Assembly: GCF_015624505.1 (NCBI RefSeq) | Contig: NZ_CP061379.1 | Coordinates: 5,580,001 to 5,644,000, forward strand | Direction: 5' to 3' | DNA length: 64,000 nucleotides | DNA from: Bradyrhizobium commune | GTDB lineage: Bacteria; Pseudomonadota; Alphaproteobacteria; Rhizobiales; Xanthobacteraceae | In this document: positions 4,576 through 14,345 of the stretch, piece after piece | How the letters are laid out: each line of letters begins with the position of its first letter | Numbering within the stretch: the first letter of the stretch is position 1 | The notes under the pieces: model-generated | Seen by the model: only the letters and a program-made list of their open reading frames with translations | Told to the model about the DNA's origin: nothing | Databases searched by the model: none | Made by a program: the position numbers and the translations under genes

Positions 4576-4774
4576 GACCCATCTCCCTTTCCAACAAGAT
4601 GCCTCCCTTTCCAATAAAATGCGCCACTCCAGGAATGGTTCAAGAAAATAACTTATTGATTTTACTTTACTTTTTTGATCACTTGGAGTTTTTGCCGACT
4701 CTTGTGGAACTCGCGCCAAATTCGGTCGTTGAGCAAACTACTCAAATTACTCAATTTGATTTGTGTGATCGACC

Positions 4775-5023
4775 ATGAATGATCTTCGCGCCGAGCGCCT
4801 TCAGGTCATGCTCTCGCCAGAAGAGCTGGCCGCCGTTGACGATTTCCGGTTCAAGCATCGCATGCCGACGCGCGCCGCAGCGGTGCGCGAACTCCTCAAG
4901 TTCGGGCTCGCGGCGGCGGATGTTGATGCAGCCGCCGGCGTGAAGTCGAGCAGCTTCGGCGTGTTCGGCCGCGGACCTGAGGGGCACACGCAAGGTGACC
5001 CCGAAGGCGGCAACGAAAACTGA
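4775..5023 (+). CDS. Small ribbon-helix-helix-like protein
   Basis: Residues 5-47 read ERLQVMLSPEELAAVDDFRF followed by a helix ending in AVRELLKFGLA. This is the beta strand plus two helices of a ribbon-helix-helix DNA-binding fold, as in CopG/Arc or antitoxin regulators. The 35-residue tail is low-complexity Gly/Ser/Asp. It is divergent from the 4239-4575 pair across an AT-rich 200-base gap, so it could autoregulate from there. No toxin gene is adjacent, so a solitary regulator is more likely than an antitoxin. Confidence 0.75.
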   Translation: MNDLRAERLQVMLSPEELAAVDDFRFKHRMPTRAAAVRELLKFGLAAADVDAAAGVKSSSFGVFGRGPEGHTQGDPEGGNEN

Positions 5024-5647: not shown

Positions 5648-5912
5648 GGTTAAGACGTGGGCACGGAACCCCCGTCCCGCAACCGCCCTTACCGGATCGT
5701 AACCCTGGCGGAAACTCCTCCGCCGATTGAAAGATTCCCGGAAACGACATGGAACCAATCGTTCCCCGCGCCGTTGGTTTGGCCGGGCTGAGCAAAGCAG
5801 GTTCCATTTTCACGCGCCGCAACCTTGGCGCTTGATTTGCGATTCAGCTGACGGTCTAGTTTGGTCAATGCGTCTCGCTGAGGATTCGGCGAGGCACCTG
5901 CGGGGGAATCAT

Positions 5913-8900
5913 ATGAGCGACCTCGATCCCGGAACTGCGTCGCGCTCCGGTCGTCGCGTCCCAAAGCCCAAAATCAACGGTACGTCAGAGCCGGACTCCC
6001 GGCAGGAATTGCTGCTCGCGCTGCAAGCCATGCGCAGCGGCGATTTCTCCGTTCGGATGAGCGGAGATTATCTCGGCATCGACGGCAAGATCGCCGACAC
6101 CTTTAACGAGATCATCGCGGCCAACCAGCGCATGGCGCAGCAGCTCGAGCTGGTCGGCCAGGTGGTCGGACGCGAAGGCAAGACCCGCCAGCGCGTCAAA
6201 TTCGGTCTCGCCTCGGGCTCCTGGGCCGACATGGAAGGCTCGGTCAACACGCTGATCGACGATCTGCTGTGGCCGACCCGCGAGGTGACGCGCGCGGTCG
6301 CGGCCGTGGCGCAAGGCGACTTGCTGCAAACCGTCAAGCTCGACGTCGACGGCCGCCCGCTGCGCGGTGAATTTTTGCAGTCGGCCAACATCGTCAACAC
6401 CATGATCAAGCAGCTCGGCGTGTTCACCTCCGAGGTGACGCGCGTCGCGCGCGAGGTCGGCACCGAAGGCAAGCTCGGCGGCCAGGCTCAGGTGCCGGAA
6501 GTGACCGGCGTCTGGAAGGATCTGACCGAGAGCGTCAACTCGATGGCGAACAACCTGACCAACCAGGTTCGCAACATCGCCGAGGTGACGATCGCGGTCG
6601 CCAACGGCGACCTCTCGAAGAAGATCACCGTCGACGTCCGCGGCGAAATCCTCCAGCTCAAGGAAGCCATCAACACGATGGTGGACCAGCTGCGCTCCTT
6701 CGCCTCGGAAGTGACACGCGTGGCGCGCGAGGTCGGCACCGACGGCAAGCTCGGCGGCCAGGCCATCGTGCCCGGCGTCGCCGGCACCTGGAAGGACCTG
6801 ACCGACTCCGTCAACGCGATGTGCGGCAACCTCACCGCCCAGGTTCGCAACATCGCCAACGTCACCACAGCCGTTGCGCGCGGCGACCTGTCGCGCAAGA
6901 TCACCGTGGACGTGCGCGGCGAAATCCTGGAGCTCAAGGACACCATCAACACGATGGTGGACCAGCTCAACTCCTTCGCCTCCGAGGTGACGCGCGTGGC
7001 GCGCGAGGTCGGCACCGAAGGCAAGCTCGGCGGCCAGGCCCAGGTGCCGGGCGTCGCCGGCACCTGGAAGGATCTCACCGACAACGTCAACTTCATGGCG
7101 TCGAACCTGACCGCGCAGGTCCGCAACATCGCCGACGTTGCGACCGCGATCGCCGGCGGCGACCTCTCGAAGAAGATCACGGTGAACGTCTCGGGCGAGA
7201 TCCTTCAGCTGAAGGAAACGCTCAACACCATGGTGGACCAGCTCAACGCCTTCGCCGGCGAAGTGACCCGCGTCGCCCGCGAGGTCGGCACCGAGGGACG
7301 GTTGGGTGGCCAGGCCAACGTGCTCGGCGTCGCCGGCACCTGGAAGGACCTGACCGAGAGCGTCAACTCCATGGCGTCGAACCTGACCGCACAGGTTCGC
7401 AACATCGCCGAGGTGACGACGGCGGTCGCCGGCGGCGACCTCTCGAAGAAGATCACCGTGGACGTGCGCGGCGAAATCCTGGAGCTCAAGGACACCATCA
7501 ACACCATGGTGGACCAGCTCAACGCCTTCGCCGGCGAAGTCACGCGCGTGGCGCGCGAGGTCGGCACCGAAGGCAAGCTGGGCGGTCAGGCCGTGGTGCG
7601 CGGCGTCGGCGGCACCTGGAAGGATTTGACGGACTCCGTGAACTCGATGGCCTCGAACCTCACCGGTCAGGTCCGCAACATCGCCGAAGTCGCGACCGCG
7701 GTCGCCAAGGGCGATTTGTCGAAGAAGATCACCGTGAACGTGTCGGGCGAGATCCTTCAGCTGAAGGAGACGCTCAACACCATGGTCGACCAGCTCAATG
7801 CGTTCGCCGGCGAAGTGACGCGCGTCGCCCGCGAGGTCGGCACCGACGGCAAGCTCGGCGGCCAGGCCGACGTGCCCGGCGTCGCCGGCACCTGGAAGGA
7901 TTTGACGGACTCCGTGAACTCGATGGCGGGCAACCTCACCGCCCAGGTCCGCAACATCGCGGAAGTCGCAACGGCGATCGCGGGCGGTGACCTGTCGCGC
8001 AAGATCACGGTGGACGTCCGCGGCGAAATCCTTCAGCTGAAGGACACGCTCAACACGATGGTCGACCAGCTCAACCGCTTCGCGGGCGAGGTGACGCGCG
8101 TGGCACGCGAGGTCGGCACCGAAGGCCGTCTCGGCGGCCAGGCCAACGTGCCCGGCGTCGCCGGCACCTGGAAGGATTTGACGGACTCCGTCAATTCGAT
8201 GGCGGGCAACCTCACCGCCCAGGTCCGCAACATCGCCGAAGTCACCACCGCCGTGGCACGCGGCGACTTGTCCCGCAAGATCACCGTGGACGTGAAGGGC
8301 GAAATCCTCGAGCTGAAGAACACCATCAACACCATGGTGGACCAGCTCAACGCGTTCGCCGGCGAAGTCACGCGCGTCGCGCGCGAAGTCGGCACCGAAG
8401 GCAAGCTCGGCGGCCAGGCCGAGGTGCAAGGCGTCGCCGGCACCTGGAAGGATCTCACCGACAACGTCAATTTCATGGCCTCGAACCTGACGGCCCAGGT
8501 CCGCAACATCGCCGAGGTCGCGACCGCGATCGCCGGCGGCGACCTCTCGAAGAAGATCACGGTGGACGTGCGCGGCGAGATCCTTCTGTTGAAGGACACG
8601 CTCAACACCATGGTCGAGCAGCTCCGCTCCTTCGCCGCCGAAGTCACGCGCGTGGCGCGCGAGGTCGGCACCGAGGGCCGGCTCGGCGGCCAGGCCGTCG
8701 TGCCCGGCGTCGGCGGCACCTGGAAGGACCTCACCGACAACGTCAACCTCTTGGCCGCGAACCTCACCACGCAGGTCCGCAACATCGCCGAGGTGACCAC
8801 GGCGGTGGCGCGCGGCGACCTGTCCCGCAAGATCACCGTGGACGTGAAGGGCGAAATCCTCGAGCTGAAAAACACCATCAACACCATGGTGGACCAGCTC

Positions 8901-11900
8901 AACGCCTTCGCCGGCGAGGTCACGCGCGTGGCGCGCGAGGTCGGCACCGAAGGCGAGCTCGGCGGCCAGGCCCAGGTGCCTGGCGTGGCCGGCACCTGGA
9001 AGGATCTCACCGACACCGTCAACTTCATGGCGGCGAACCTGACCGAGCAGGTCCGCGGCATCGTCAAGGTGGTGACCGCGGTCGCGAACGGCGACCTCAA
9101 GCAGAACCTCACCGTGAAGTCGAAGGGCGAGGTCGCCGCGCTTGCCGACACCATCAACAACATGACCGAGACGCTCGCGACCTTCGCCGATCAGGTGTCG
9201 TCGGTGGCGCGCGAGGTCGGCGTCGAAGGCCGATTGGGCGGTCAGGCCGACGTGCCCGGCGCGGCCGGCACCTGGAAGGACCTCACCGGCAACGTCAACT
9301 TGCTCGCGGCCAACCTCACCTCGCAGGTGCGCGCGATCGCGGAAGTTGCGACCGCCGTGACCAAGGGCGACCTCACCCCGTCGATCCAGGTCGATGCCCG
9401 CGGCGAGCTCGCCGAACTCAAAGACAACATCAACACGATGATCACGAATCTCCGTCTGACGACGGACGTGAACACCGAGCAGGACTGGCTGAAGACCAAC
9501 CTCGCAAAGTTCACCAACATGCTTCAGGGCCAGCGCGACCTCGCCACCGTTGGCCGGCTGCTGCTGACCGAGCTGTCGCCGCTGGTGAACGCGCATACCG
9601 GCGTGATCTACCAGGTCGAGAGCGAGGACAATCCGCAGCTGCTGCTGCTCGCATCCTATGCCGGCGACGGTGTTTATCCCTACCAGCGCGTGCTGCAATT
9701 CGGCGAGGGGCTGGTCGGCCAGTGCGCGCTCGACAGGCGGCCGCGCGTGGTCGCCGAGATTCCGTCCGACGTGGTGCCGATCAACTCGGCGCTGATCCGC
9801 GTCGCGCCGAAGAACCTCGTGGTGCTGCCGGTGCTGTTCGAGGGCCAGGTCAAGGCGGTGATCGAGCTTGCTTCGCTTGCCTCGTTCACGACCTCGCAGA
9901 TGACATTTTTGGAGCAGCTCACCGATTCCATCGGCATCGTGCTCAACTCGATCGAGGCGACGATGCAGACCGAAGGCCTGCTCAAGCAGTCGCAGCAGCT
10001 CGCCGGTGAGCTCCAGACCCAGCAACGCGAATTGCAGCAGACCAACGACCAGCTCGAGCAGAAGGCGCAGCAGCTCGCAGAACGCAACGTCGAGGTCGAG
10101 CGCAAGAACCAGGAGATCGAGCAGGCCCGCCGCGCGCTGGAGGAAAAGGCCACCGAGCTGGCGCTGACCTCGAAATACAAGTCCGAATTCCTCGCCAATA
10201 TGAGTCACGAGCTGCGCACGCCGCTGAACTCGATCCTGATCCTCGGCCAGCAGCTCACCGACAACCCGGACGGCAACCTCTCGGCCAAGCAGGTCGAATT
10301 CGCCCGCACCATCCACGGCGCCGGCACCGACCTGTTGAACCTCATCAGCGACATTCTCGATCTCTCCAAGATCGAGTCCGGCACGGTGACGGTCGACGCC
10401 GAGGAAATCCTCACCGCCAATTTGCTCGAGACCGTCGGACGGCCGTTCCGGCACGAGGCGGAGAACCGCAATCTCTCCTTCAAGATCGACGTCGATCCGA
10501 ACCTCGCACGCAGCATCGTCACCGACTCCAAGCGCCTCCAGCAGGTCCTGAAGAACCTGCTCTCCAACGCCTTCAAGTTCACCGGCGAAGGCGAAGTGCG
10601 GCTGAAGGTGGCCGGCGCGCTCGGCGGCTGGGGCACCGATCACCCGGTGCTGAACTCCGCGCCTGTCGTGATTGCGTTCGAGGTGTCCGATACCGGCATC
10701 GGCATTCCGCTGGAGAAGCAGAAGCTGATCTTCGAGGCATTCCAGCAAGCGGATGCCGGCACCAGCCGCAAATATGGCGGCACCGGCCTCGGCCTTGCGA
10801 TCAGCCGCGAGCTCGCGAGCCTGCTCGGCGGCGAGATCCATCTGCGCAGCGCGCCCGGCAAGGGCTCGACCTTCACGCTCTATCTGCCGCTGAAATATTC
10901 CGGCCCGACGCTGGCGCCGCGCGCTAACCCAGCACCGCAGCAATACAACCAGCCTCCGGCGCTTCAGCCGGCGACTACGGCCCCCGACCGTGCCATCGAG
11001 CAATTGCCCGACGACCGGCTCAACCTCGAGCCCGGCGACAGCATCCTGCTGATCGTCGAGGACGATCCGCATTATGCGCGCGTGCTGGTCGATCTCGCCC
11101 GCGACAAGGGTTTCAAGGTCCTGGTCGCCGCGCGCGGCGCGGAAGCGCTCGAGCTTGCCAAGCAGTATCAGCCGCGCGCGGTGTCGCTCGACGTGTTCCT
11201 GCCGGACATGCTCGGCTGGACCGTACTGAGCCAGCTCAAGCACAATCCGCTGACGCGTCACATCCCCGTGCAGATCATCACGCTCGACGAGGACCGCCAG
11301 CATGCGCTGGCGCGCGGCGCCTTCTCCTTCGTCAACAAGCCGACCACGACGGAAGGCGTCGCCGCCGCGCTGACGCAGATCAAGGAATATGCGCGGCCGC
11401 GGCGCAAGCGCCTCCTGATCGTCGAGGACAACGAAGCCGAACAGCTCTCGATCCGGGAGCTGCTGCATCACGACGACATCGAGATCGTGACGACTGACAC
11501 CGGCGCCGGTGCCCTCTCGACCTTGCGCGAGGCACCCTGCGATTGCGTGGTGCTCGACCTGCGGCTGCCCGACATGAGCGGCTTCGAGGTGCTCGATCAG
11601 ATTCGCCACGACGAAGCGCTGTCGAACATTCCCGTGGTGGTGTTCACGGGCCGCGAGCTGTCGGCCGAGGAGGATGCGGAACTCCACACCATGGCACGCA
11701 GCATCGTGGTCAAGGGCGTGGAGTCGCCGGAGCGCCTGCTCGACGAGACCGCGTTGTTCCTGCACCGCGTGATCACGGAACTGCCGGTCGAGAAGCAGCG
11801 CATGCTGGAGAAGCTGAACAGTTCCGACGAGGACCTGATCGGCAAGACCGCCCTGCTCGTCGACGACGATGCCCGCAACATCTTCGCGCTGTCGAGCGTG

Positions 11901-12209
11901 CTGGAACGGCGCGGCATGAGAGTGCTGACGGCGACCACCGGCCGCGAGGCGGTGACGCTGGTCGAATCCAACCCGGAAATCGCCATCGTGCTGATGGACA
12001 TCATGATGCCGCAGATGGATGGGTATCAGACCATCGGCGTGATCCGGGAGAACCCGGCCTTTTTGCGCCTGCCGATCATCGCGCTGACCGCGAAGGCGAT
12101 GAAGGGCGACCGCGAGAAATGCCTAGAGGCAGGCGCGTCCGACTATCTCGCAAAGCCCGTCAACACCGACCAATTGCTGCTTGCAATCCGCATGTGGCTG
12201 CATCGCTGA
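5913..12209 (+). CDS. Giant cytosolic poly-HAMP hybrid histidine kinase (HAMP array-GAF-HisKA-HATPase-3x REC)
   Basis: From the ATG at 5913 (after GGGGGAATC) the product has 2098 residues and no membrane segment. Order: divergent HAMP-like region (1-173), eleven tandem 92-residue HAMP units (174-1185), GAF (about 1200-1340), coiled coil, HisKA with phospho-acceptor His1432 in [13 protein letters not shown], HATPase with the N box and DTGIGIP and [10 protein letters not shown] glycine boxes, then three receiver domains with phospho-Asp at about 1760, 1882 and 2029. REC2 ends in VVKG rather than the usual KP. The architecture recalls fungal group III (Nik1/Os-1) osmosensing kinases, where HAMP and HAMP-like modules alternate. 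A REC-PAS-HWE kinase starts 13 bases after its stop. The input signal is unknown. Confidence 0.93.
6432..9467 (+). repeat. Eleven tandem 276-bp units encoding 92-residue HAMP modules
   Basis: Unit starts fall exactly every 276 bases (6432, 6708, 6984 and so on to 9192), each opening with [10 protein letters not shown] or a variant and containing GTWKDLT, QVRNIA, GDLS and NTMVDQL. Units 1-10 are very similar; unit 11 ([14 protein letters not shown]) and the second half of unit 10 are diverged. Units alternate between TTAVA/TIN and ATAIA/TLN types, with a phase slip between units 5 and 6. Long near-identical stretches make this a candidate for copy-number change by recombination. Confidence 0.95.
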
Positions 12210-12222
12210 GTGGGATCCACGA

Positions 12223-13716
12223 ATGGACCATGAAAAGGTCAACATTCTCCTCGTCGACGACCAGCCCGCCAAGCTGCTCGCTTATGAGGTGATCCTGAAG
12301 GAACTCGGCGAGAACCTCGTGATCGCCTCGTCCGGCCGCGAGGCGCTGGAGGTGCTGCTCAAGACCGAGATCGCAGTGATCCTGGTCGACGTTTGCATGC
12401 CCGAGCTCGACGGCTTCGAGCTCGCGGCGATGATCCGGGAGCATCCGCGCTTCCAGAAGACCGCGATGATCTTCATCTCGGCCATCCAGGTCTCCGACAT
12501 CGACCGATTGCGCGGCTACGAGATGGGCGCGGTCGACTACGTGCCGGTGCCGGTGGTACCGGAGGTGCTGCGCGCCAAGATCAAGGTATTCGCGGAACTC
12601 TACCGCAAGACCCGCGAGCTCGAGCGGCTGAACCAGGAGCTCGAGGACCGCGTCCGCGCGCGGACGGCGGAACTGGAGAACTCCACCTCGAAGTTGCGCG
12701 AGAGCGAGCAACGCCGCAGCATGGCTATCGCCGCCGGCAAGATGGGATCCTGGGACTGGGACTGGATCAACGGCGACTGGATGTGGGACGAAGGCCAGTA
12801 CCGTATTTTTGGCGTGACGCCGGAGACCTTCAGCGTCGGCTCCGCAAACATCCAGGCGCTGCTGCACCCTGACGATGTCGATCAGTTCCGACAGGCCATC
12901 GCCGCATTCAACACCGGCGCGCGTGCCTATGAGGGGGAATTCCGCGTCAGCCGGCCCGATGGCGAGGTGCGCTGGTGCGTCGGCACGGCCGCGGCAACGG
13001 TGGACGAGAGCGGGCGTGTGGTACGCGTCAGCGGCGTGACCGTGGACATCACAGAGCGCAAGCGCGCCGAGGAGCGGCAGAACCTCCTGGCGCGTGAAGT
13101 CGATCATCGCGCCAAGAATGCGCTCGCCCTGGCGCAGTCGATCGTGCGCCTCACCCGCGCCGACGAGGTCAAGGCCTATGTCAACGCGGTCGAGGGGCGC
13201 ATCAATGCGCTGGCGCGCGTGCACACCATCCTGTCGCTGTCGAGCTGGCAGGGCGCCGAGCTCTCCAGGCTGATCGAGGAGGAGCTTGCGCCCTATTCGC
13301 TCGGCGGTCAGATCAAGCTCGCGGGTCCCGAGGTGCAACTGCTGCCGGCGACCGCGCAGACGCTGGCGCTGGCGCTGCACGAGCTCTTCACCAACTCGGC
13401 CAAGTATGGCGCGCTCTCGACACGATCGGGACGGCTCACGATCGGCTGGCAGGCCGAGAACGACCTTCTGACGCTGACATGGGAGGAATCCGGCGGTCCG
13501 CTCGTCAGGACGCCGAAATCGCGCGGCTTCGGCACGCGAAGCCTGCTGGCGAGCGTCGAATCCCAGCTCGGCGGACAGGCGCAGTTCGATTGGCGTGCCG
13601 AAGGCCTGTTGTGCCGCCTCGAGGTGCCGTTGACGCGCAAGAGCGCGGCCACGTCGGCAGCGCAGGACAAGTTCGACGCCGGCGCCCCGCCTGAGCTCCA
13701 GCGCGCGTCGGGTTAA
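12223..13716 (+). CDS. REC-PAS-HWE family histidine kinase
   Basis: The product from the ATG at 12223 has 497 residues: an N-terminal receiver domain (Asp56 in ILVDVCMPELDG), a coiled coil, a PAS domain (about 170-290, closing ITERKRAEE), and an HWE-type kinase core with His295 in EVDHRAKNALALAQS, an N box in LHELFTNSAKYG and the WEESGG signature. The conserved Lys of the receiver is replaced (YVPVPVVPE). It starts 13 bases after the poly-HAMP kinase stop, so the two very likely form one operon and phosphorelay. No DNA-binding output partner is adjacent. Confidence 0.92.
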   Translation: MDHEKVNILLVDDQPAKLLAYEVILKELGENLVIASSGREALEVLLKTEIAVILVDVCMPELDGFELAAMIREHPRFQKTAMIFISAIQVSDIDRLRGYEMGAVDYVPVPVVPEVLRAKIKVFAELYRKTRELERLNQELEDRVRARTAELENSTSKLRESEQRRSMAIAAGKMGSWDWDWINGDWMWDEGQYRIFGVTPETFSVGSANIQALLHPDDVDQFRQAIAAFNTGARAYEGEFRVSRPDGEVRWCVGTAAATVDESGRVVRVSGVTVDITERKRAEERQNLLAREVDHRAKNALALAQSIVRLTRADEVKAYVNAVEGRINALARVHTILSLSSWQGAELSRLIEEELAPYSLGGQIKLAGPEVQLLPATAQTLALALHELFTNSAKYGALSTRSGRLTIGWQAENDLLTLTWEESGGPLVRTPKSRGFGTRSLLASVESQLGGQAQFDWRAEGLLCRLEVPLTRKSAATSAAQDKFDAGAPPELQRASG

Positions 13717-13934: not shown

Positions 13935-14075
13935 ATCGAATGTTCCCGTGTTGTTGGTGTTCATCCTCGCAAGATCCGCATGAACCTCGAATGAAGCCCA
14001 CCGTGACAAATCGTTCATAGCGGATGGAACCTGCAATCACCGGCCGCGTTTCATGCAACATCGAGGGGCGGTTCC

Positions 14076-14345
14076 ATGCGTGCGAGAAAGTCGCCAAAAA
14101 AATCTCCAAGCCTGATCTCTTCCGCCGGCCTCATCAGGCTAATGACGCAGGCAATGATGGGCGCAGCGCTTGGTCTTGCCTTCACGCTCACGCTCATTCT
14201 GGCCAATCCTGCGATCGCGGAATTGGTGAACCATGGCGAAAGCGGGGCGGTCTTCGTCTTTGTGGTCTCGCTGGTGACGACATTTGCGATCGGTGCAGCG
14301 CTTACGGGCGTTGTGTTCATCCTCAACGAGGACAAGGAATCTTGA
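14076..14345 (+). CDS. Small two-TM membrane protein
   Basis: This 89-residue protein has a basic N-terminus (MRARKSPKKSPS) and two hydrophobic helices (about 24-47 and 57-83) joined by a short polar turn. It ends in a charged tail. The start is preceded by GAGGGGCGG. No family is recognised; the N-terminal positive charge predicts N-in/C-in topology at the inner membrane. Confidence 0.72.
   Translation: MRARKSPKKSPSLISSAGLIRLMTQAMMGAALGLAFTLTLILANPAIAELVNHGESGAVFVFVVSLVTTFAIGAALTGVVFILNEDKES

Follow-up and report, generated by a model that had tools for sequence, protein, structure and literature searches.

A soluble hybrid histidine kinase with eleven 92-residue HAMP units in Bradyrhizobium commune, and its putative place in a two-tier stress relay

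The 64,000-nucleotide window of Bradyrhizobium commune considered here (contig NZ_CP061379.1 of assembly GCF_015624505.1, positions 5,580,001-5,644,000, forward strand; coordinates are positions in this window) carries a gene for a soluble poly-HAMP hybrid histidine kinase, in which an array of eleven tandem HAMP units is followed by GAF, HisKA, and HATPase domains and three receiver (REC) domains. A second kinase gene follows directly, and a putative EcfG-type promoter lies ahead of the pair (Table 1). On the open reading frame (ORF) of the first kinase, Pfam recognizes 11 stretches of HAMP and 12 of HAMP_2 along with GAF, HisKA, HATPase_c, and three stretches of Response_reg; its head-to-tail HAMP modules make it a poly-HAMP protein, and all 12 HAMP_2 matches of the genome fall within this one gene. 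No transmembrane segment was found in the kinase, whose largest 19-residue hydropathy mean is 1.6. The mechanically called ORF begins at a TTG at 5727; the ATG at 5913 is preferred, its product falling within the 2,095-2,100 amino acids (aa) of many listed relatives. An earlier sequence-only reading of this DNA overlooked that start and the degenerate HAMP modules ahead of the array, among them a unit 0 recognized by the twelfth HAMP_2 match. From knowledge of the family, we take the aspartates of the DVFLPD, DLRLPD, and DIMMPQ motifs in the three receivers to be phospho-accepting.

Three approaches agree on the array. A direct-repeat search finds eleven copies with every start-to-start distance exactly 276; Tandem Repeats Finder reports a single array (6431-9332, period 276, 10.5 copies, 81% matches, 0% indels); and in-frame translation gives eleven 92-residue units at 6432-9467 without indels, just as the sequence-only reading had it. 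Such an array is far beyond chance. Each unit is made of two HAMP modules, which by our reading of the residues split into one divergent (..GKLGGQA..GTWKDL..) and one canonical (..AVARGDL..GEILELK..), and many inter-helix residues are invariant across units. The solved chain 9trk_A aligns to residues 17-306 of a 541-aa query taken from ATG 5913 (E 4e-113); this solved relative, PDB entries 9trk and 9trj ("histidine kinase, Gcn4p"), spans the N-terminal region and the array as far as the middle of unit 2, and differs from the kinase here in being a fragment fused to Gcn4.

Table 1. Features of the poly-HAMP kinase locus (window positions)
Feature	Position	Strand	Remarks
EcfG-type motif GGAAC-N16-CGTT	5751..5775	+	exact match, 137 bases before the start codon
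Coding sequence, soluble poly-HAMP hybrid histidine kinase	5913..12209	+	2,098 aa; ATG start read from the sequence
N-terminal region, degenerate HAMP modules	5913..6431	+	unit 0 at 6156-6431; HAMP_2 match 6213-6407; aligns with solved chain 9trk_A
Unit 1, N-cap	6432..6707	+	position-specific; a single clade spanning orders among 11-unit arrays (100/100)
Units 2-9, interior	6708..8915	+	subtypes T A T A A T A T; inter-unit sequence exchange in some lineages
Units 10 and 11, C-caps	8916..9467	+	adjoin GAF; present in nearly all arrays read
GAF domain	9534..9944	+	PF13185, E 5e-16
HisKA	10179..10382	+	PF00512; SHELRTPL motif (S codon 10203)
HATPase_c	10524..10895	+	PF02518
Receiver domain 1, Asp codon	11190..11192	+	Response_reg stretch; likely phospho-accepting (DVFLPD)
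Receiver domain 2, Asp codon	11556..11558	+	Response_reg stretch; likely phospho-accepting (DLRLPD)
Receiver domain 3	11853..12188	+	PF00072 best stretch (ORF 2043-2154); likely phospho-accepting Asp codon 11997-11999 (DIMMPQ)
Next gene, REC-PAS-HWE histidine kinase	12223..13716	+	497 aa; 13 bases after the kinase stop codon; PF00072, PF08447, PF07536
Domains of the next gene		+	REC 12244-12582, PAS 12778-13038, HWE 13096-13332 (Pfam)

Within the genus, the number and order of units are close to fixed. The gene was found in 58 of 60 genomes at E < 1e-200; one of the others, G033, is a 1,000-contig draft holding fragments of it. In G026, listed as 100% complete, the search returned only other kinases at 33-45% identity, so the gene is either naturally lost there or hidden by a gap in the assembly. 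Of 50 genus loci read, 49 were counted, one (L038) being set aside for its Ns; all 49 have 11 units, including L035 and L047, where one motif is altered and the spacing still gives 11. When units of these arrays are compared across species, the best partner of a unit occupies its own position in 99.8% of protein comparisons (25,818 of 25,872) and in 25,187 of 25,872 DNA comparisons, with per-position identities of 96.2-99.9% in protein and 88.7-92.0% in DNA. Units are orthologous by position; their divergence predates the genus, and also the order unless whole genes were transferred.

Beyond the genus, both number and presence vary. Complete arrays were counted by rank in 104 genomes, the window's own among them with 11 units; short arrays in draft genomes may be assembly collapses. 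The 56 other genus genomes have 11 (55 genomes) or 10 (one). In the family, 11 units occur in 12 genomes, 9 in four, 8 in one, 6 in one, and 4 in two; in the order, 11 in four, 9 in eight, and 8 in one; in the class, 11 in three, 9 in seven, and 7 in one; and in the phylum, 9 in two and 6 in one. Counts of 9 and 11 thus account for 96 of the 104 genomes, and outside the genus 21 arrays of 9 stand beside 19 of 11. Matches at the cut-offs number 41 of 119 genomes in the family draw (some partial or kinase-only), 16 of 199 in the order, 12 of 240 in the class, and 24 of 398 in the phylum, draws that include the window's own genome and, in some, other genus members. The gene is therefore patchy outside the genus, and whole-gene transfer between lineages is possible. 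An eleven-unit gene with its receiver neighbor also sits on plasmid pRLN1 of Rhizobium leguminosarum (L286), a possible transfer route.

Copy-number differences, which the sequence-only reading had expected, do exist. Among 120 close protein relatives listed, 114 are complete, 107 of them with 11 units, four with 10, one with 9, one with 12, and one with 14, so that seven depart from 11; two of the four 10-unit relatives seem to be a single gene given two starts. A strict odd-number (two-unit) quantum was considered and rejected: 10 units lie on a 7,995,639-bp contig (P0064/P0066), arrays of 12 and 14 exist, and G860, in 3 contigs, has 6. The fourteen-unit protein is a Bradyrhizobium yuanmingense record (P0002) whose extra interior copies resemble units 4 and 6. 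A wider set of named loci, the best 80 of 585, includes 11-unit arrays in Acidobacteriota, Myxococcota, Planctomycetota, Gemmatimonadota, and Verrucomicrobiota; because that list favors arrays of query length it says little on the frequency of 11, and several of its members are metagenome bins whose labels may be wrong.

The ends of the array behave differently from its interior. Unit trees (from 16 eleven-unit arrays with 176 units and from 6 arrays with 66) recover units 1, 10, and 11 as clean position-specific clades with 100% bootstrap. Short arrays of the window's type drop interior units and mostly retain 1, 10, and 11. A second type, mostly of 9 units (L109-L111, L114, L164, L165, L201, L202, L204, L205, and L207, for example), retains 10 and 11 and begins with a unit resembling an interior one. 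Unit 10 was not recognized in L085/L090 (short arrays of the window's type), L092, L208, and L304. Outside the genus, the 231 units of 21 eleven-unit arrays include 203 that best match the same position, the outlier being G124 with 4 of 11, and several of the 37 named loci that were mapped have interiors departing from the window's position order. Single arrays show local homogenization (units 3-6 in L199, 7/9 in L160, 2/7 in L105); interior units do exchange sequence in some lineages. Units at different positions resemble one another only slightly more within a species than across species (84.6 versus 84.1% in the first half, 81.3 versus 80.6% in the second; 13 of 49 loci), so exchange within the genus is slow. 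Of the outcome that would have told against a growing array in the sequence-only reading, a fixed copy number among distant relatives with no sign of exchange, the fixed number appears within the genus only, and exchange is present.

Units also fall into kinds. By their canonical HAMP halves, units 1, 2, 4, 7, and 9 form one subtype (T) and units 3, 5, 6, and 8 another (A). The residue features on which the sequence-only reading had founded an alternating two-unit super-repeat are present, and they divide the units into two alternating subtypes with a slip between units 5 and 6, as proposed. The alternation is statistically weak, with p 0.11 and 0.07: of the 70 arrangements of units 2-9 alone, 8 alternate as much or more (p 0.11), the types having been chosen after viewing. 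The most frequent patterns, with 39, 14, and 3 arrays, preserve the alternation, and Ramlibacter arrays of 14 units and Acidobacteriota arrays (A T A T A A T A T) show a similar one; in other lineages nearly all units are T.

The pairs expected from such a super-repeat (2-4, 3-5, 6-8, and 7-9, each said to match best) fared less well. The closest DNA pairs in the window are 3-8 (90.2%), 7-9 (88.4%), 2-7 (87.3%), and 3-5 (87.0%); 2-4 (84.8%) and 6-8 (84.1%) give the best DNA match for none of units 2, 4, 6, or 8, and mean DNA identity among units 2-9 is 87.7% at lag 5 (3 pairs) versus 85.0% at lag 2 (6 pairs). In protein, 4-7 and 7-9 rank first (92.4% each), followed by 3-5 (90.2%). None of the four expected clades was recovered in the unit trees, in either the 176-unit set or the 66 units (6 arrays) used for approximately unbiased (AU) tests. 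These tests reject 2-4 (p 0.005) and an exclusive 7-9 (p 0.024), as well as 2-7 (p 0.024); they do not reject 3-5 (p 0.13), 6-8 (p 0.21), 3-8 (p 0.12), or 3+5+6+8 (p 0.20). A group of 2, 7, and 9 appears in the unit tree, and enforcing it does not worsen the tree (p 0.54), while the protein tree places 3 with 5 (93 in the Shimodaira-Hasegawa-like approximate likelihood ratio test, SH-aLRT). A pair passes the AU test only if all six copies of both positions group, hence exchange between units also penalizes it. Since exchange breaks up old pairs, rejection of 2-4 argues against its being a pair that can still be seen, and tells less against a very old pair.

The sequence-only reading mentioned neither of the two features that link this kinase to a physiological setting, the downstream receiver gene and the -35 box of an EcfG-type promoter. 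With a receiver-domain gene counted when it lies at most 400 bp downstream, and loci counted when at least 450 bp of flank is available, such a gene follows the kinase in 99 of 100 genomes, at a gap of 5-144 bp in the printed rows, and likewise in 67 of 77 named loci. A receiver-bearing kinase gene is thus adjacent, as a two-tier pair requires. The complete Pfam domain set of the partner was read in the window; by eye, the downstream kinase is also HWE-like in L105 and L106.

The motif upstream, GGAAC-N16-CGTT, is that given for EcfG1 of Rhizobium etli in a passage of PMC3892343. Of 83 upstream regions, 30 carry it in strict form, 17 of them among the 51 from the genus and 13 among the 32 from outside, compared with a mean of 0.26 and a largest value of 2 over all 83 when shuffled. 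In a matching slot, picked after that strict scan had been viewed and read in 55 of the 57 genus loci given (2 skipped), GGAAC is present in 55 of 55 versus 8.5% of random slots; the 16-base spacing is kept in 53, and 52 of these have the TT of the -10 box. The spacer itself is not conserved (positions at most 0.7 bits). From the slot counts, the -35 box is universal in the genus set and the -10 box drifts around a fixed TT; a conserved EcfG-type motif ahead of the gene would place it as a candidate member of an EcfG regulon. In many of L031-L059 the -10 departs from CGTT with TT and GGAAC fixed, perhaps reflecting a different EcfG paralogue. Two further exact motifs lie in the window, at 4706-4730 ahead of an 82-aa ORF (4775-5023) and at 14026-14050, shortly before a small ORF placed by eye near 14078. 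Three exact motifs within 9.4 kb compare with 0.8 expected in the window, and 6 of 100 shuffles reach three.

Promoter and partner together make a two-tier kinase pair in the general stress response, with the HAMP rod as an internal input, the simplest account. The cytosolic rod kinase would be the upper tier of a relay into that response, read from its own EcfG-type promoter; we put the probability of this reading at roughly 0.55. The eleven HAMP pairs and the degenerate N-terminal modules could form a long parallel coiled-coil rod, a shape suggested by the HAMP family, in a kinase that is probably dimeric. Such a rod would hold the GAF-HisKA kinase in one signaling state and relay a change of packing to it. 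With its three receiver domains as the route, the kinase may then phosphorylate the receiver of the adjacent kinase, and that HWE-family protein may act on PhyR-EcfG. A promoter of EcfG type driving both genes, presumably transcribed together, would close a positive loop.

Parts of this scheme have precedents, here drawn from excerpts of the papers cited. PhyR-activating kinases of Sphingomonas melonis belong to the HWE/HisKA_2 family (PMC5898713), and within the general stress response of Sphingomonas KipF transfers phosphate to the receiver kinase PakF (PMC5863495), an instance of kinase-to-receiver-kinase transfer to which the present pair is likened by its proposed phosphotransfer only and not by domains. 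Deletion of all HAMPs from the fungal kinase CaNik1 switches its pathway on (PMC3848655), which by analogy suggests a rod that restrains the kinase. The genome has four PhyR_sigma2 matches, two of them close together near 6.98 Mb. Osmotic or envelope stress would be a guess, by analogy with Nik1, at the signal; in B. diazoefficiens the general stress response protects against osmotic stress (PMC8092242).

Several observations weigh against the relay. The strict motif is absent from 34 of 51 genus and 19 of 32 non-genus upstream regions, and the full -10 CGTT is seen in only 19 of 55 genus loci, three of its four bases being present in 21 and two in 15. Receiver domains are common, and 99/100 and 67/77 are raw proportions, uncorrected for chance neighbors of a hybrid kinase; no receiver gene was found in the 3.5 kb flank of G860 or detected in ten of the 77 named loci (L263, L272, L293, L294, L297, L298, L304, L306, L308, and L311). 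By eye, the downstream protein in L224-L230 and L232-L238 is a receiver with a different kinase core and a second receiver, with no HWE, and L231 has no receiver at that position. Because the downstream kinase core differs among lineages, the relay may end in the stress response in only some members of the family. Both AlphaFold predictions were of low confidence, with mean predicted local distance difference test scores (pLDDT) of 43 and 46; the second has two helices of about 30 residues per 92 residues, which is compatible with a HAMP pair and not proof of one. The phosphotransfer and expression steps themselves are putative.

What set the number of units is a separate matter. Recent growth by 552-bp (two-unit) duplications, as the sequence-only reading proposed, is rejected by the DNA identities, unit trees, and AU tests, for the units diverged before the genus and do not show the predicted pairs. 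In a version of any age, growth by that step would account for the T/A alternation and its recurrence in Acidobacteriota and Ramlibacter, for the survival of 3-5 and 6-8 in the AU tests, and for the grouping of 3 with 5 in protein; set against this are the rejection of 2-4 and exclusive 7-9, the lag-5 pairs 3-8 and 2-7 that are nearer in DNA than the lag-2 pairs 2-4 and 6-8, and arrays that have lost one, two, three, or seven units (some in drafts), all of which leaves it rather improbable. It is quite possible that the number 11 has no function, and that arrays inherited by descent and horizontal transfer seldom change and look fixed since the genus is young. Arrays of 4 to 14 units retaining the kinase part, the near parity of 9 and 11 outside the genus, the slight homogenization within it, and the occurrence of the gene on a plasmid all fit that view. 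Gains and losses do occur, however, and interiors exchange elsewhere, yet 55 of 56 genus genomes have 11; the excess of protein over DNA identity among genus units shows selection on sequence, not on number. More tentatively, the array could be a counted rod with fixed, specialized caps (unit 1; units 10 and 11), whose recombining interior repeatedly offers longer and shorter rods that selection purges, leaving eleven pairs in this lineage; rod length or helical phase rather than ligand number would then be selected, in a stress kinase that activates its own promoter via the adjacent second kinase.

Other functions can be envisioned for the array itself. As a cytosolic small-molecule sensor, its HAMP pairs would bind ligand, an idea raised for ambruticin and the myxobacterial Ask kinases, and its length would multiply binding sites; the invariant inter-helix residues could be read in this way, and the architecture is of the same class as Amb07, AskA, and AskB, which are tied to the ambruticin response (PMC7643160). 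The same paper, in the passage concerned, states that binding to NIK1 is not shown, and a pure multiplier needs neither position-specific end units nor a nearly fixed number, making a sensor of this kind unlikely here. A rod that clusters signaling proteins or binds DNA, with HAMP pairs setting the oligomer state, would have a counterpart in FrzCD, a soluble receptor whose di-HAMP is described as controlling DNA binding and clustering (PMC12077210), and Pfam does sum weak HTH and SpoIIID matches over the array, as the Ask paper also noted for its kinases (PMC7643160). None of these stretches passes singly, hence they look like a repeat artefact, and a role as nucleoid or scaffold tether seems very improbable beside the two-tier relay.

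Two annotations over the kinase gene were set aside. Matches to SpoIIID, HTH, and DUF1759 are rejected as domains, with 0 stretches passing alone; over the array, at residues 223-800 of P0001, the Pfam list has SpoIIID, HTH, and RHH families, none of which passes in any one stretch. DNA-binding domains can be mimicked when weak repeats are summed, and similar matches are reported for the Ask kinases (PMC7643160, in part). On the minus strand, a frame of 1,926 aa is open at 5985-11765. It is rejected as a gene: an open run of that length or more arises in 26% of 200 synonymous resamplings, and its length ranges from 385 to 2,119 among the 49 genus loci. The long frame follows from a GC content of 90% at third codon positions.

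The kinase resembles several known systems without coinciding with any, as far as the parts of the papers cited here describe them. Like the fungal group III hybrid histidine kinases (CaNik1, Bos1, TcsC), it is soluble, with N-terminal 92-aa HAMP pairs followed by HisKA-HATPase and receiver. It is set apart from the CaNik1 type by the number of its pairs (eleven, with unit 0 in addition), by its GAF domain and the presence of three receivers, by its bacterial host, and by the neighboring partner kinase. CaNik1 has four 92-aa pairs plus one HAMP (PMC3848655), and the sequence-only reading was right that the array is about twice as long and cytosolic. Its parallel with the alternation of HAMP and HAMP-like modules in Nik1 stands for the 92-residue pair logic; that alternation sits inside each 92-aa unit and differs from the two-unit one. 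Group III kinases are called fungal-specific (PMC11253588) and feed the high-osmolarity glycerol (HOG) pathway; a kinase in a bacterial genome may work like them and is not filed as one.

Among bacteria, myxobacterial AskA, AskB, and Amb07 are likewise poly-HAMP hybrid kinases with arrays longer than that of NIK1 (PMC7643160), a likeness drawn from their description, not their sequence. The passages on them mention no receiver-kinase partner and no EcfG promoter, unlike the case here. The HAMP tract of MXAN_6735 (AskB) differs in length between two myxobacterial genomes (PMC4603909, in part), so bacterial poly-HAMP kinases and a tract-length difference are already in print. In Aer2 of Pseudomonas aeruginosa, too, HAMP modules are concatenated and adopt two conformer types in turn (PMC3570549, in part), and its structure 3vol_A is a weak sequence match (E 0.0004); Aer2 differs in being a chemoreceptor with three plus two HAMPs. 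In the literature searched, with most subscription papers lying outside the search, no account was noticed of the kinase here, nor of any poly-HAMP kinase whose pair number is fixed or which has a receiver kinase as its partner.

Long HAMP chains in soluble kinases raise the question, in fungi and bacteria alike, of what they are for and what they sense. The chain described here comes with natural length variants, specialized ends, a partner kinase, and a stress-linked promoter, all in genetically tractable rhizobia. This combination makes it testable whether the number of HAMP pairs sets output, and whether a Nik1-like rod feeds PhyR-EcfG in bacteria.

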